A stretch of DNA of 64,000 nucleotides, from NCBI RefSeq assembly GCF_016595495.1, contig NZ_JAENIM010000041.1, forward strand, positions 216,513 to 280,512, read 5' to 3'. This DNA comes from Persicirhabdus sediminis (GTDB taxonomy: Bacteria > Verrucomicrobiota > Verrucomicrobiia > Verrucomicrobiales > Akkermansiaceae). Shown piece after piece: positions 42,275 through 50,099 of the stretch. The position numbers were made by a program, and so were the translations under genes. The notes beneath the pieces are model-generated. The model saw only the letters and a list, made by a program, of their open reading frames with translations, was not told the DNA's origin and did not search any database. Each line of letters starts with the position of its first letter. Position 1 is the stretch's first letter.

Positions 42275-42348
42275 TGGAGCGGGTAGCGGGAATCGAACCC
42301 GCATGATCAGCTTGGAAGGCTGGAGCTTTACCACTAAGCTATACCCGC
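42275..42348 (-). tRNA. tRNA-Gly(TCC)
   Basis: The 74-nt cloverleaf includes the encoded CCA (42275-42277). Acceptor stem GCGGGTA/TACCCGC, D loop AGTGGTAA, anticodon loop CTTCCAA with anticodon TCC (Gly, GGA codon), and T loop GGTTCGATTCC. The terminator follows closely, so it is transcribed as a single tRNA. Confidence 0.97.
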
Positions 42349-42578: not shown

Positions 42579-43562
42579 TTAAAAATTCGCCGGGAATGGG
42601 TTGGCGCTGAGCCTCAGTTGAATCTCCTCTGCAGTGTATTCACTAGTCCCAGGGGCATCATAATTTGCTGCCTGCTGGAGACTGTTCAGCGCTACGGCAC
42701 TGGTGAATAGGCAAAGGCTGAATAGAGCGGTCAGAAACTTGCGTGGTGGTTTGCTAGAGCCAATTGATAGAGCTCGCTGCTGAAGTGATGCGTGACCACT
42801 CATCGCAGCTACGAGCTCAGAGTTAGTTTTCTGTTTGGCTAGGGTTAAGTCGCAAAGGGCATTGAGGTAATCGCGCCTGTTGATGCCTTGTTGGATGGCG
42901 ATCTGATCACAGGCGTACTCACAGGTCTCGTTGTAGAGAGCTTTGATTTTCCAGACAAATGGGTTGAACCAAAGTAGCGCGCACAGCCAGTGGCTGAGTT
43001 CTTTCACCCATAGGTCTCGCCTCTGAAAATGCGCGAGTTCATGAAGTAAACAAGCCTCCAGCTGAGAGCTTGACCATTGGCTTGCCTGCGCCGGCAGATA
43101 AATAGCTGGCTTAAGCAGACCCGCAATCAGCGGTGCTTGTAGATGTGGGTGGGTGAAACAGGGCACACTTTTGTTGATTTCTAACTTACCGTGGCATTGG
43201 ACCAATGTTTCATGAATTGCTGAGCTAGGAGATATCGGATTGGAAATTGTCCGCCAGTTAGCTAGTTTGCGGTGGGCTAGCAGGTGCCTAGTGGCGAGCA
43301 ATACGGTGAGTATTATCCAGCAGACTGCGAGCCATGGTTTGTCTGCTGGTAGGGTGGCATTTGCCGACCAGCTGGAAAGAGGCGAATCTAGCTGGCTAAC
43401 TGTTAATGGAAGACTCTCAGCTGGCAGCCAATGGAAAAGTGGCAGTAGAGCTAGAATGATTAGACTGCATAGGCTCATCTGACTGCGATGCTGAAACGGG
43501 AGCAACAGGCATAAAGAATATGCCAAGCCAGCGAGGAAGATAGATGTGATGGCCAAGATCAT
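42579..43562 (-). CDS. M56-family metallopeptidase sensor (BlaR1/MecR1-like)
   Basis: The 327-residue membrane protein has about four spans and a zinc site, LLHELAHFQRRDLWVKEL, in a cytoplasmic loop. That is the BlaR1/MecR1 protease module without a penicillin-binding sensor domain. On receiving a signal these proteins trigger cleavage of the BlaI repressor. The ATG overlaps the stop of the blaI-like gene by 4 nt. Signal unknown; cell-wall or antimicrobial stress is the usual theme. No beta-lactamase is nearby. Confidence 0.9.
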   Translation of the reverse strand: MILAITSIFLAGLAYSLCLLLPFQHRSQMSLCSLIILALLPLFHWLPAESLPLTVSQLDSPLSSWSANATLPADKPWLAVCWIILTVLLATRHLLAHRKLANWRTISNPISPSSAIHETLVQCHGKLEINKSVPCFTHPHLQAPLIAGLLKPAIYLPAQASQWSSSQLEACLLHELAHFQRRDLWVKELSHWLCALLWFNPFVWKIKALYNETCEYACDQIAIQQGINRRDYLNALCDLTLAKQKTNSELVAAMSGHASLQQRALSIGSSKPPRKFLTALFSLCLFTSAVALNSLQQAANYDAPGTSEYTAEEIQLRLSANPFPANF

Positions 43563-43975
43563 GATTCGTCTAATGATTTACGGATCTTTTCGATTTCTTC
43601 TTCAGTCAATTGTTGATCTTTTGGGTCTAGCAGCATGGCTACTAGTTGGTCAGCCTTGCCGTCAAAGAATGTGCTCAGTAGGTTTTTGACCGCGCTTTTA
43701 CGAGCGATTTTTTGCTCCTGAGCTGGTTTATAGATGTATTGTTTGCCCTGCTTTTTGTGGGTAACTTTCTGTTTGTTCAGCAGCGTTGTTAGTAGGGCGC
43801 GAACGGCCGAGTACGATGGAGCGTCATCCATTTCTTCCATTACCTGCTTGGCTGATGCTTCGCCTAGCCGGTATAGGATGTCGATGATTTGGCGCTCACG
43901 GCGAGATAGTTTACTGGTATCGATTTCGCTCACAACAAATTCATAGTGGCTTAGATCTGTGTGGCAATCAATCAT
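43559..43975 (-). CDS. BlaI/MecI/CopY-family repressor
   Basis: The 138-residue protein has a winged helix (LSRRERQIIDILYRLGEASAKQVMEEM, YSAVRALLTTLLNKQKVTHKKQGKQYIY) and a C-terminal helical dimer part ending with QLTEEEIEKIRKSL. Start at the ATG 43975 is drawn; a GTG at 43933 would fit the family length better, since the first 14 residues are atypical. It would be cleaved on signalling by the M56 protein. A large cruciform sits at 43977-44038, directly upstream, and is the natural operator candidate. Confidence 0.92.
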   Translation of the reverse strand: MIDCHTDLSHYEFVVSEIDTSKLSRRERQIIDILYRLGEASAKQVMEEMDDAPSYSAVRALLTTLLNKQKVTHKKQGKQYIYKPAQEQKIARKSAVKNLLSTFFDGKADQLVAMLLDPKDQQLTEEEIEKIRKSLDES

Positions 43976-43976
43976 G

Positions 43977-44038
43977 AAGTGCTAAAAAAACTGCATTTAA
44001 ACTTGCGTTATTCGGCAAGTGCTGTTTTTTTAGCACTT
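43977..44038. promoter_or_regulatory. 62-nt near-perfect cruciform between blaI-like and lipoprotein genes
   Basis: Outer arms of 18 bp at 43977-43994 and 44021-44038 match at 17 positions (AAGTGCTAAAAAAA plus C.GC). Inside lies a second perfect stem ACTTGC (44001-44006)/GCAAGT (44015-44020). It lies 2 nt before the drawn blaI start and 24 nt before the lipoprotein start, so it can control both. The AT-rich centre of the arms makes a rho-independent terminator unlikely. No TACA/TGTA-type Bla box is seen. Confidence 0.6.
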
Positions 44039-44062
44039 GTTATGCAGATGCCATTCACAAAA

Positions 44063-44887
44063 ATGAAGAAACCAATCCACTGGCCTGTGGCTGCAGTGAG
44101 CTTGCTGAGTCTATTTATATTTAATGCCTGCGCACCACCATCGCCAATGTCGGCACCCTATATAGGTGCTCCTGACGATTCTGATGGGAAAAGTTTTGGA
44201 TCTCTAGCTGAAAGGCAGCGTCCGGGATTGGGCACTGGCTTTGGCGATGAAATTTCGGCTGAGATGAGCTATGCCTCATTTAGTAGAGCTAGCAAAAATC
44301 CAGCTGGCTTAGAGTCTATCTATTACAATGACAAAGAGGGCGTCGATGCGATGAAACAAGCGCTCCATGCTTCAGCTGGCATGCAAAAGGCTGCTAACGG
44401 GCTGGTAGAGTGGGGCATTAAAAATGACTGGCGTTATGCCAAAAACTACAATGATTACCGCTTTAATGGTGGTGATAGGAAGTTGTTGAACCGCTATGTA
44501 GTTGGCAAAAAAGGCGGTAAATATTCCATCGTTGTTAGGAATCTTTGTAAGTCTCGATTAGAACTTGTTCTGAGTGTTGACGGTTTAGACGTGGTTGATG
44601 GTAAAGCGGCGAGTTTGAGCAAGCGTGGATACATCGTAGCTCCAGGCAAGACATTAGAAGTGAAGGGATTCCGCACCAGTGAAGAAGCGGTGGCCGCTTT
44701 TGAGTATTCGTCAATGAACCGGTCTTATAGCAATTTGAAGCATGAAACGACACGTAATGTTGGCGTGATAGGAATGGCAGTTTTTACGGAAAAGGGAGTG
44801 GATCCGTGGAAATGGACTAGCCAGCGCGTGGAAGCTAGGAAATCAGCTAGAGCATTTGCAGAAGCCCCGCAGGAATTAGCGAACTAA
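44063..44887 (+). CDS. Lipoprotein of unknown function
   Basis: About 274 residues from the ATG at 44063, chosen because it begins a lipoprotein signal (MKKPIHWPVAAVSLLSLFIFNAC). Lipidation is at Cys22; the following CAPPSPMSAPYIG matches the start of the next gene's product (SCSSHEVMPAPYIP). The middle has basic, aromatic-rich segments (KYSIVVRNLCKSRLELVLSVDGLDV, PGKTLEVKGFRTSEEAVAAFEY) resembling a beta domain. I do not recognise the family. It lies beyond the BlaI cruciform, so it may be under BlaI/M56 control. Confidence 0.8.
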   Translation: MKKPIHWPVAAVSLLSLFIFNACAPPSPMSAPYIGAPDDSDGKSFGSLAERQRPGLGTGFGDEISAEMSYASFSRASKNPAGLESIYYNDKEGVDAMKQALHASAGMQKAANGLVEWGIKNDWRYAKNYNDYRFNGGDRKLLNRYVVGKKGGKYSIVVRNLCKSRLELVLSVDGLDVVDGKAASLSKRGYIVAPGKTLEVKGFRTSEEAVAAFEYSSMNRSYSNLKHETTRNVGVIGMAVFTEKGVDPWKWTSQRVEARKSARAFAEAPQELAN

Positions 44888-44894
44888 CAAAAAA

Positions 44895-45551
44895 ATGAAG
44901 TTACATAACATTTTGATATTCGCAGTCACGGCGAGTTTGTCGATTTCCTGTTCTTCACATGAAGTGATGCCAGCTCCTTATATACCAGCTGGACTAGGTG
45001 CGAGTTCTCATTCAGCTAGAGTCAAAACTCATTCAGCAAAAATGGCAGTGGAGGTTGATGATACCAATCAGCGAGCGAAAGAGGTCGAGTCAATGGTTAG
45101 AAAAAGCTCTGGTATCCTTGTATCAGTTGACCTCAATGATAAGTCATCGAGTTTTGTGAATATGAAAGTTCCAGAGGAGAAGTTAGAACTCATGCTCGAT
45201 GAAATCGGAACCTTAGGCAAAGTGACTTCTCGGCGAGTTAAAAGTAAAGACATCACCGAGCAGGTCGCGGATGCAGCGGTGAAGTTAGAAAACTTGCGCC
45301 AGCTCAGAAGCCGTTACCGAAAGTTATTAGACCGCGCTGAGAAAGTGGATGAAATGCTCAAAATTGAACGTGAGCTCGCACGGGTGCAAACTGAGATTGA
45401 ACAACTCGAAGCTAGAAATAGAAGCTTATCCCAACAGGTGGCAATGGCTGATGTGGAATTAAAGCTGTCGCAGAAAATAGTCCCTGGCCCAGTGACTCTA
45501 GCAGGCAAAGGTGCTTATTGGACATTGAGCAAATTATTTGTACTCAATTAA
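44895..45551 (+). CDS. DUF4349-like lipoprotein
   Basis: A 218-residue lipoprotein (lipobox SISC, Cys19) with SGILVSVDLNDKSSSFVNMKVPEEKLELMLDEIGTLGKVTSRRVKSKDITEQ, then a long coiled coil (LDRAEKVDEMLKIERELARVQTEIEQLEARNRSL) and a C-terminal hydrophobic tail. This is the DUF4349 arrangement, usually a membrane protein facing the cell surface. It starts 8 bp after the preceding lipoprotein, so both form an operon divergent from the repressor. Function unknown. Confidence 0.82.
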   Translation: MKLHNILIFAVTASLSISCSSHEVMPAPYIPAGLGASSHSARVKTHSAKMAVEVDDTNQRAKEVESMVRKSSGILVSVDLNDKSSSFVNMKVPEEKLELMLDEIGTLGKVTSRRVKSKDITEQVADAAVKLENLRQLRSRYRKLLDRAEKVDEMLKIERELARVQTEIEQLEARNRSLSQQVAMADVELKLSQKIVPGPVTLAGKGAYWTLSKLFVLN

Positions 45552-45557
45552 ACGAAA

Positions 45558-45596
45558 AAATGCGGCTAGTTAGCTCTGAGCTAGCTGGCCGCATTT
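45558..45596. terminator. Bidirectional terminator between lipoprotein operon and PEP-CTERM gene
   Basis: Outer stem AAATGCGGC/GCCGCATTT with inner AGCT pairing (45558-45596), 7 bp after the lipoprotein stop; the A-run on its left serves the minus strand gene, which ends at 45619. Confidence 0.85.
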
Positions 45597-45618: not shown

Positions 45619-46527
45619 CTACCTGCGACGTCTTAGAAGTGTGCTGATTCCAGCTAGAGCTATCAGGCTGATAGAGCTTGGTTCAGGCACGGGAGTGAAC
45701 GATGTCTCAAAGGTGAAACTTCCCTCTGCTGCGACTGCGTGGTTAGGTGTATTATTTGTTGGAGTTAGGTCTGAGTGGTCAAAAAAGTACAGGTTGATGC
45801 GCTCAACTGGGCTAGCAAAGTAGAGCGTTGCAGTAGCATCAGCAGCCTCTGCAGTTGAGCTGCCTTCGTTATCCCAGCCGTGTGTATCGATATCTCGGTA
45901 GACGGTATCTAGGTTGTAGGTGCTAGTATCTAGCATGAGTTCGCTGCCTCCTAAGTTCCAGTTTGCTAGAACATCGCCAGTGCCCAATGTGGGATTAAGC
46001 GATTGAGAACTCCAGCCTTCGGCTGCAAGTGTGTCGATCCAGTTTTTTGCGGATCCCTCATCGGAGGAATCAATGTCTAAGATGCTCCACGAAAAGTTGT
46101 CGACCGCCTCGCTAAAAGTAATGGTCCAAACTTGATAGTTTTCGATTTGTTTGACTCCTTCAATGGTAGTTGTCTGATGATCAACTGACACGGAGCTGTT
46201 ACCCATGATAAACCCGTCGCCAGCGTTGTCAGCTGAAGTTGATAGGTTTTTGTCAAGATTGTGGGTGGTAGCTGTACCCGCATAGGTACTGGAGAAGCTT
46301 ACTGATACTCCGGCGACCGAGCTGGTCCCTGAGCTGTAATTACCATCATAACCATTGCTGTTAGCTGAGCCACCTTCTTGTGAGTGGTCCCATTCGCTAG
46401 TTGCTGGTGATCCTGGATATTGGTCTTGGGCGTCGGGGAGGAAGCTGACGTATGCTGTGCCAGCTAGAGCGTGGGGGCTGGCTGCTACTAAGCTAATGAG
46501 TAGAGCCAACGGGGATATGTTTTTCAT
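45619..46527 (-). CDS. Secreted PEP-CTERM sorting-signal protein
   Basis: The 302-residue protein starts with a signal peptide (MKNISPLALLISLVAASPHALAG) and ends in the PEP-CTERM tripartite signal VPEPSS-hydrophobic-RRRR (VPEPSSISLIALAGISTLLRRRR). An exosortase should process it, so that enzyme is expected elsewhere in the genome. The body is Ser/Thr/Asp-rich with beta-like repeats. It is exported to the cell surface; its role may be in biofilm or sheath matter. Confidence 0.93.
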   Translation of the reverse strand: MKNISPLALLISLVAASPHALAGTAYVSFLPDAQDQYPGSPATSEWDHSQEGGSANSNGYDGNYSSGTSSVAGVSVSFSSTYAGTATTHNLDKNLSTSADNAGDGFIMGNSSVSVDHQTTTIEGVKQIENYQVWTITFSEAVDNFSWSILDIDSSDEGSAKNWIDTLAAEGWSSQSLNPTLGTGDVLANWNLGGSELMLDTSTYNLDTVYRDIDTHGWDNEGSSTAEAADATATLYFASPVERINLYFFDHSDLTPTNNTPNHAVAAEGSFTFETSFTPVPEPSSISLIALAGISTLLRRRR

Positions 46528-49457: not shown

Positions 49458-50099
49458 ATGCCTGATTTAAAAACTCTCGATTGTAAAAAAGTCAAACTCC
49501 CGCGATGCTTCCAGCTAGCGGGGGCGATGCTGATTACCTTGCTGGCTGTAGCCTGTGGCCCCAGCCATCCCAACAATGTGATCGTTTCTGTGCAGGACCA
49601 GCAGCTACTACTTGTTTCTGAGGGCCAGCCAGTCAAAGCATACCCGATCTCGACATCGAAGTTTGGTCTAGGCGACCAGCAGGGGAGCATGCGCACTCCT
49701 GTAGGTAAGATGGAAGTGGCCAAAAAAATTGGCAACGGCGCGCCAGCTGGAGCGGTCTTCAAAGGCCGCAGACGTACTGGTGAAGTACTGCGACCAAATG
49801 CACCTGGCCGCGATCCTATAGTCACTCGTATTTTGTGGCTGAAAGGGAAGTCAGGAGGCACTCGCAATGCCTACGAGCGCTACATCTACATTCACGGCAC
49901 ACCAGAAGAGCGCACCATCGGCCAGCCAGCTAGTTACGGCTGTATTCGGATGCGCTCCAGTGACATCATCGACCTTTACAAATACCTCGGTGTCGGCTCA
50001 GAAGTACGTGTTATTCGCGGCTCACTGGGGAGAACTCACCAAGGTCAGGCGCATATCGCCAATTCAGCTGCTTTAACTCCTGTGGGCAGCGATTCCTAA
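49458..50099 (+). CDS. L,D-transpeptidase (YkuD) lipoprotein
   Basis: This 213-residue protein has a lipoprotein signal (LAGAMLITLLAVAC). The YkuD domain carries the active-site segment HGTPEERTIGQPASYGCIRMR, with catalytic Cys in SYGCIRM and His at the start. Such enzymes make 3-3 crosslinks in peptidoglycan or attach proteins to it. It lies 24 bp after the glycosyltransferase, on the same strand, perhaps co-expressed. Confidence 0.9.
   Translation: MPDLKTLDCKKVKLPRCFQLAGAMLITLLAVACGPSHPNNVIVSVQDQQLLLVSEGQPVKAYPISTSKFGLGDQQGSMRTPVGKMEVAKKIGNGAPAGAVFKGRRRTGEVLRPNAPGRDPIVTRILWLKGKSGGTRNAYERYIYIHGTPEERTIGQPASYGCIRMRSSDIIDLYKYLGVGSEVRVIRGSLGRTHQGQAHIANSAALTPVGSDS

Follow-up and report, generated by a model that had tools for sequence, protein, structure and literature searches.

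What do a BlaI-type repressor and its partner M56 metalloprotease control at a locus with no beta-lactamase beside them, and what is the role of the long inverted repeat that separates the pair from two lipoprotein genes? The locus lies in Persicirhabdus sediminis, within a 64-kb stretch of one contig of the 4.17-Mb genome (hereafter, the window), and is compared here with its counterparts in other Akkermansiaceae-type Verrucomicrobiota (the relatives). Many BlaI/M56 pairs are found away from beta-lactamases, and for most of these neither the signal nor the targets are known to have been established. With considerable confidence, we propose that the locus belongs to a regulon of envelope lipoproteins, governed in this group by BlaI/M56 derepression, with the layout of the bla divergon and an operator of its own.

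The four genes of the locus described in the earlier note are borne out by open reading frame (ORF) calls and Pfam matches. The M56 gene (42579..43562) and the blaI-like gene (43559..43933), both on the minus strand, share 4 nt, as the ORF coordinates confirm. The blaI ORF is open to an ATG at 43975 (43559..43975), and GTG 43933 is the most likely start because the similarity to relatives sets in, in most alignments, between residues 13 and 22 of this longer reading. On the plus strand, the lipoprotein gene LP1 (44042..44887) is followed after 7 nt by LP2 (44895..45551), a DUF4349 lipoprotein gene that here forms one operon with LP1. Both lipoprotein genes are divergent from blaI, as had been noted, but they are co-directional, not divergent to each other, and the peptides MSAPYIG and MPAPYIP, formerly taken for protein starts, sit just past the lipobox cysteines (...FNAC in LP1 and ...SISC in LP2, by inspection). 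In line with the note, none of the 10 neighbouring proteins that were scanned is a beta-lactamase; that scan did not extend to the rest of the window.

Paired dyads upstream of LP1

The intergenic region contains a 62-nt inverted repeat (43977-44038), the arms of which are 91% complementary (17 of the 18 outer pairs plus an inner 6-bp stem, by inspection). Its fold scores z = -5.8 against shuffled sequences, none of 200 shuffles being equally good, and it is the sole repeat in the 64 kb with arms matching at 20 or more of 22 positions and an inner gap of up to 40. The exact 15-nt arm is found nowhere else in the genome, and on this ground we reject a mobile-element or repeat reading. Both arms are dyads in themselves (AAGTGC-N10-GCATTT and AAGTGCT-N8-AGCACTT), and we denote the left arm O2 (AAGTGCTAAAAAAACTGCATTT, 43977..43998) and the right arm O1 (AAGTGCTGTTTTTTTAGCACTT, 44017..44038). 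The inverted repeat consists of two dyads in opposite orientation, which are probable binding sites for a BlaI-type repressor.

This interpretation follows from the footprint in the relatives. LP1 is present in 99 of the 195 genomes of the GTDB family, representing 11 of its 16 genera; the relatives account for 98 LP1 loci, 80 of which were fetched, and together with the window these give 81 upstream regions. In a de novo count of all gapped 4-bp dyads, with no motif presupposed, the exact dyad TGCT-N8-AGCA was found in 77 of these 81 regions, compared to 4.7 expected from random stretches of the same loci. Dyad pairs spaced by 39-45 bp (one mismatch allowed, A/T centre required) occur in 69 of the 81 regions, and in 67 of these 69 paired loci an ATG lies 3-10 nt past the AGCA of the nearer dyad, O1. 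The distance is 10 nt from the start of AGCA in the right arm to ATG 44042 of the window, which we consider the most likely LP1 start, and 6-9 nt in 65 of the 69 loci (relatives and window together). In 68 of the 69 loci, TTGAC stands in the O2-O1 spacer at a distance of 35-39 nt from the downstream ATG, the exception being the window, with TTGCG at 44003..44007 (plus strand) in the same position; TTGAC reads as the -35 element of a putative, nearly leaderless promoter. Many of the linked loci have a third dyad, usually with one mismatch, 23-26 bp past O2 on the blaI side.

LP1 is divergent to blaI-M56 in 47 of the 80 relatives, and M56 follows blaI in all 47; in the remaining 33, blaI lies outside the fetched stretch, some stretches stopping at contig edges. 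Loci without blaI in the fetched stretch still have an exact TGCT-N8-AGCA upstream of LP1 in 32 of 33 cases. Neighbourhood and operator thus persist in relatives, in agreement with a check that the earlier note had proposed. A DUF4349 gene adjoins LP1 only here among the loci compared, and tblastn found none beside LP1 in the 80 loci.

The canonical Bla-type box has the consensus TACAnnTGTA, and neither TACA nor TGTA occurs within 43933-44063. The sequence of an OP1 oligonucleotide for the bla system of Bacillus licheniformis is given in the accessible part of PMC3305447. The earlier statement that the repeat is not a Bla-type box accordingly stands for the canonical consensus but not in the wider sense, because each arm behaves as a putative box of this system.

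Dyads at unlinked genes and the candidate repressor

The same dyads recur away from LP1. DUF4349 genes are present in 30 of the 195 family genomes, 29 of them over the family cut-off. A dyad lies within 320 nt upstream in 27 of these 30 loci, compared to 165 of 4,622 control windows (3.6%), and a dyad pair in 21 of the 30, compared to 14 of 4,622 control windows from the same loci. The three loci without a dyad are the window copy, which is in the LP1 operon, a stop-split gene (L195) and a gene below the family cut-off (L196). For blaI itself, 30 loci of 3.4 kb each were retained, 16 of which show no LP1, with M56 present in 15 of these 16. Counted from BlaI residue 15, all 16 have a dyad with one mismatch at -33/-34, and a further dyad follows at -56/-57 in 14 of them; the argument for this set is the fixed position, without control windows. 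Dyads at LP1, blaI and DUF4349 loci match the pattern that would be expected of one repressor with unlinked targets. The suggestion that the lipoproteins are the regulated output is therefore probable, given that the operator is kept at LP1, unlinked DUF4349 and blaI loci.

These unlinked copies also bear on the proposal, made in the earlier note, of a near-perfect cruciform. The inverted repeat is present as described, the strand folds strongly (z above), and O2 is A-rich and O1 T-rich in 52 of the 69 LP1 promoters, so that the arms remain partly complementary; these points speak for a cruciform or RNA hairpin acting in its own right, as terminator, attenuator or protein-bound cruciform. However, complementarity of the O2 and O1 centres at LP1 promoters, 5.16 of 8 positions, barely exceeds the 4.99 of permuted pairs (355 of 5000 permutations are as high), and in the 24 DUF4349 pairs it is 2.33 of 8 (4427 of 5000 permutations as high). 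Because the presence of dyads was the selection criterion for these pairs, the case for recurrence beyond chance rests on the control-window comparison; in 17 of the 24, both dyads are T-rich and unable to pair, so no hairpin can form. The lone-blaI dyads, 23 bp apart, present yet another layout. As their sequences read, the relatives conserve the dyads rather than the hairpin. We reject the cruciform as the functional unit, the dyads recurring at DUF4349 promoters with complementarity mostly absent, and regard a role of the inverted repeat as such as very improbable.

Further potential targets come from 20 dyad regions chosen non-randomly among the matches listed. In eight of these (L197, L198, L200, L201, L203, L207, L213 and L216), the dyad extends over the start codon (ATG) of a gene for a small lipoprotein, rich in proline, that ends in [YF]F[RK]VP, the fuller conserved end being VADPxxPxxxxK[YF]F[RK]VP; these belong to one genus, g7, of Luteolibacter/Haloferula type, and the one member scanned has no Pfam match. 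Elsewhere, the dyad precedes a YfbK-like von Willebrand lipoprotein (L212) and a DUF3160 protein (L215). Many of the further targets read begin like proteins with a signal sequence or lipobox, by impression without scoring, and regulon content seems to differ between genera. In the genome of P. sediminis, AARTGCT-N8-AGCAYTT with up to two mismatches yields 77 sites among the matches listed, compared to 40 for the reversed pattern; a stricter dyad pattern yields one unrelated site, and so does its control pattern. Genus g3, which is not represented in the sets of genomes that carry LP1 or a close BlaI, frequently shows a single site per genome; the example examined (L214) lies inside a long ORF that resembles ftsK and was treated as a chance match.

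The repressor gene product matches PF03965 (Penicillinase_R) with 87.7 bits (cut-off 22.6) and falls short of the named NCBIfam models, the best being CopY_TcrY at 56.8 bits (cut-off 121.95), with BlaI_of_BCL at 43.3 (cut-off 180); it is a member of the BlaI/MecI/CopY family but none of those named proteins. As is typical of the BlaI family, dyads are found at its own and at target promoters, where binding is putative.

Among the 195 genomes, 91 have both LP1 and a close BlaI (E <= 1e-30, a cut chosen by us), 8 have LP1 alone, 5 BlaI alone, and 91 neither. Another transcription factor could bind the dyads, with BlaI controlling something else: operators vary within the BlaI family, according to the accessible part of PMC8457756, so the owner of the dyads is not assignable by sequence alone, and no systematic look was made at other regulator genes conserved at these loci. 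Nevertheless, the dyads lie in front of blaI itself where LP1 is absent alongside, LP1 and the close BlaI co-occur (one is found alone in just 13 of the 195 genomes), and the dyads resemble known BlaI operators in size and pairing, which makes a different owner improbable. We infer that BlaI is the protein that binds the dyads.

Several observations count against a regulon of this kind. TTGAC is found in just 4 of 24 DUF4349 promoters; the window has no recognisable third dyad near blaI; and its LP1 promoter is atypical, with TTGCG instead of TTGAC and an imperfect O2.

The M56 protease and a peptide common to M56 and LP1

The M56 protein has a BlaR1-like core. It matches PF05569 with 105 bits, and the HExxH (174-178) and E215xxxD219 motifs are invariant in 34 M56 sequences that are 25-33% identical to that of the window. 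Its AlphaFold2 model (pLDDT 87.4) matches six PDB chains at E <= 0.001, all of them cryo-EM structures of BlaR1; superposed on 8exr_A, it gives a TM-score of 0.58 of the target and an rmsd of 2.8 over 172 columns. The penicillin-binding sensor domain is absent: the protein is 327 aa long, and its last long helix stops at 301, which leaves 26 residues. Because this defining feature fails, we do not name the protein BlaR1, and its score with the NCBIfam model blaR1_generic is 78 bits (cut-off 400). In BlaR1, both termini are outside and the protease site faces the cytosol (PMC9834060, accessible part); therefore, the 26 residues past the last long helix of M56 should be extracytoplasmic.

These residues include a conserved tail, residues 311-327 (...EEIQLRLSANPFPANF; 42582..42632, minus strand), modelled with mean pLDDT of 88 and 82 in its two blocks. 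R317, A320, F323 and P324 are invariant in the 34 sequences, and residues 317-324 rank third by conservation among all 8-residue windows of M56. The tail has the form [DE][IV]xLRxxA[ND]PFP or near, with R-x-x-A-x-x-F-P close to the M56 end in 46 of the 47 linked relatives (the exception is L073), and is also present in both Roseibacillus M56 proteins, from genomes with LP1 unlinked. Neither of the two paralogous M56 of P. sediminis has it; these two M56 domains (C37:24667-25683 and C8:128167-128715) are in ORFs of 1647 and 1638 codons beside BlaI genes of their own.

LP1 itself is a conserved family for which Pfam and NCBIfam give no matches; PHROGs and PADLOC were outside this search. The best PDB profile has E = 0.12, so no credible PDB relative was retained, and a fold search returned nothing at E <= 0.001. 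The lipobox cysteine, Cys30, is invariant in 28 sequences, which were chosen for a visible lipobox. At two loci, L109 and L120 (genomes G081 and G130), two adjacent LP1 copies lie beside blaI, the second being 35-37% identical to LP1 of the window. LP2 matches PF14257 (DUF4349) with 134.4 bits (cut-off 27.7), a family that figures in one paper in connection with Tat export and the lipobox.

The C-terminus of LP1 resembles the M56 tail. It reads approximately RxxAx(P)FAEAP, and a loose form is present in 73 of 75 relatives, the two misses being cut ORFs (5 of the 80 loci were left out of this count for lack of a recognised lipobox or motif). The window LP1 has a weak form, RKSARAFAEAP, at 44837..44869 (plus strand). 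More distant LP1 homologues, 36-44% identical and from Myxococcota and other Verrucomicrobiota, mostly end in ExxxRxxANPFPGxFATPP. A score matrix derived from 57 distinct M56 tails (the training M56 were chosen for having the tail) was used to rank 5,770 non-M56 ORFs: the first 50 are all LP1, as are 92 of the first 100, with the matches close to the C-terminus, although some loci come from the same genome twice and some "other" ORFs are LP1 missed by the label. The best ORF that is neither M56 nor LP1 scores 9.1-9.2, and LP1 reaches 34.8. In the genome of P. sediminis, one of five DNA matches to A[ND]PF[PA] ends a long ORF, and that ORF is M56. By sequence comparison, the tail peptide is common to the M56 and LP1 families; its functional role is putative. 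The peptide lends some weight to the part of the earlier note that saw in a lipoprotein a component of the sensor.

Homologues of LP1 with 36-44% identity are also found in Myxococcota/Polyangia and other deltaproteobacterial records (L271, L273, L275, L278, L281, L282, L284-L287, L289-L291, L294 and L295), most of them with an A[ND]PFP-type tail; Minicystis rosea has two. No blaI-M56 was found near those of deltaproteobacterial type in the fetched flanks, and the tail is absent from all four readable M56 in two Myxococcota genomes, a fifth M56 not being resolved. In three verrucomicrobial records (L277, L280 and L288; LP1 identity 40-44%), LP1 is divergent to blaI-M56 and the M56 tail is present; dyads are visible at L277 and L288, not at L280.

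The tail might be the means by which M56 senses: RxxA[ND]PFP would copy the C-terminal peptide of LP1, and the two would compete for one docking site, a possibility we advance tentatively. The site might be, and we are just as guarded on this point, M56 itself, LP1, or a third envelope protein. Several results weigh against such sensing. The tail of the window LP1 (QRVEARKSARAFA) scores 2.3, below 22 "other" ORFs, so the resemblance would not stand out from this genome alone, and low scores, down to -17, are frequent among LP1 proteins of the ARAFAEAP form. At L280, M56 carries the tail and LP1 does not. Covariation of the two tails across loci is not significant (1011 of 5000 permutations are as high), and, with LP1 of Myxococcota carrying the tail and the four M56 read there lacking it, the tail has some role apart from M56.

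The last two of these points fit a different, likewise doubtful explanation, namely that a periplasmic factor recognises the peptide as a tag for sorting or turnover, with no part in signalling: most Myxococcota LP1 have the full ExxxRxxANPFPGxFATPP where no tailed M56 was found in genomes or flanks. A tag of this kind sits less easily with the restriction of the top tail scores among ORFs of the searched loci to M56 and LP1, and with the genome of P. sediminis, in which a long ORF ends in A[ND]PF[PA] solely in M56 and the paralogous M56 are tailless.

Proposed circuit and relation to known systems

Under the proposed derepression scheme, a BlaI-type dimer would bind 22-bp dyads of approximate form AAWTGCTG-N6-CAGCAWTT, paired about 40-44 bp apart, bracketing a -35-like element and ending at the target start codon. 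Bound to O1 and O2, BlaI would shut off LP1 (in this genome, together with the DUF4349 gene) and its own blaI-M56 operon; in relatives, the further dyad would let it cover the blaI-M56 promoter too. An extracytoplasmic signal would activate M56, a membrane zinc protease that resembles BlaR1 but lacks its penicillin sensor, and M56 would inactivate BlaI by direct cleavage, as described for BlaR1 (PMC9834060, accessible part), so that LP1, DUF4349 and blaI-M56 are expressed. More tentatively, the M56 tail would be the sensing element, and LP1 would feed back as a ligand, competing for the same partner or site as the tail. Because M56 has an LP1-like tail where BlaR1 has the penicillin sensor, this tail is the leading candidate for the input, and LP1 is the leading candidate for a ligand or competitor that would close the loop.

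Sequence comparison shows the genes, the dyads and their recurrence at LP1, blaI and DUF4349, three sorts of target that are not linked to one another, as well as the missing penicillin sensor and the common tail; we infer repression, M56 cleavage of BlaI and the nature of the signal, for which envelope stress, as suggested earlier, may be the input. The first part of the mechanism, BlaI/M56 derepression, is well supported by this comparison, and the tail/LP1 feedback is a proposal.

The arrangement is that of the bla/mec divergons (BlaI-BlaR1 and MecI-MecR1 of B. licheniformis and Staphylococcus aureus), with a target divergent from a repressor-protease operon and a PF03965 repressor. According to the accessible parts of the respective papers, the B. 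licheniformis bla divergon has three operators, OP1-OP3, between the genes (PMC3305447), and BlaR1 carries the HExxH and ExxxD signature (PMC9834060), which the M56 protein shares along with the fold of the membrane and protease parts. The system described here differs in that neither a beta-lactamase nor a PBP2a output was found nearby; the penicillin-binding sensor domain is replaced by approximately 26 residues with the RxxA[ND]PFP tail, the operator lacks TACAnnTGTA, and lipoprotein targets lie at several places in a genome. Also comparable are the BlaI_0696 and BlaI_1845 regulons of Clostridium thermocellum, which, in the accessible part of PMC8457756, have two inverted repeats per target, autoregulation, and small regulons that include proteins of unknown function; their operator, in contrast, consists of GTCTAT/GACTAT repeats, and that part of the paper does not name LP1 or DUF4349 family lipoproteins among the members. 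Given that other BlaI proteins have operators unlike TACAnnTGTA (same source), a new box is unsurprising in itself. The surprising parts are the lipoprotein regulon and the common tail, the latter being the most novel point. We found no description of this lipoprotein regulon in the literature on BlaI/BlaR1/M56, their operators and Verrucomicrobia, judged mainly from titles and abstract openings.

Other features of the surroundings include an inverted repeat 3' of LP2 (45558..45596), which probably terminates both LP2 and the gene that converges on it (45619-46527); a tRNA-Gly (tcc) gene downstream of M56 (42275-42348, minus strand); and, about 4 kb off, a gene for an L,D-transpeptidase (YkuD) that begins like a lipoprotein (49458-50099). 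Throughout the window, hexamers of the CCAGCT, CAGCTG, AGCTGG and CTAGCT type are 1.9-2.8 times over the prediction of a trinucleotide model.

The footprint points to a specific candidate operator, to a repressor-protease pair that would regulate itself, and to targets at unlinked sites, most of which are envelope lipoproteins. LP1 and DUF4349, families of unknown function, gain a regulatory context. The peptide common to the protease and lipoprotein families is a possible input, and the question of the signal becomes testable in cultured relatives (Luteolibacter, Haloferula and Roseibacillus). If peptide sensing holds, LP1 would serve as output and feedback ligand at once, in a BlaI circuit that gauges lipoprotein supply or the state of the envelope, not an antibiotic.

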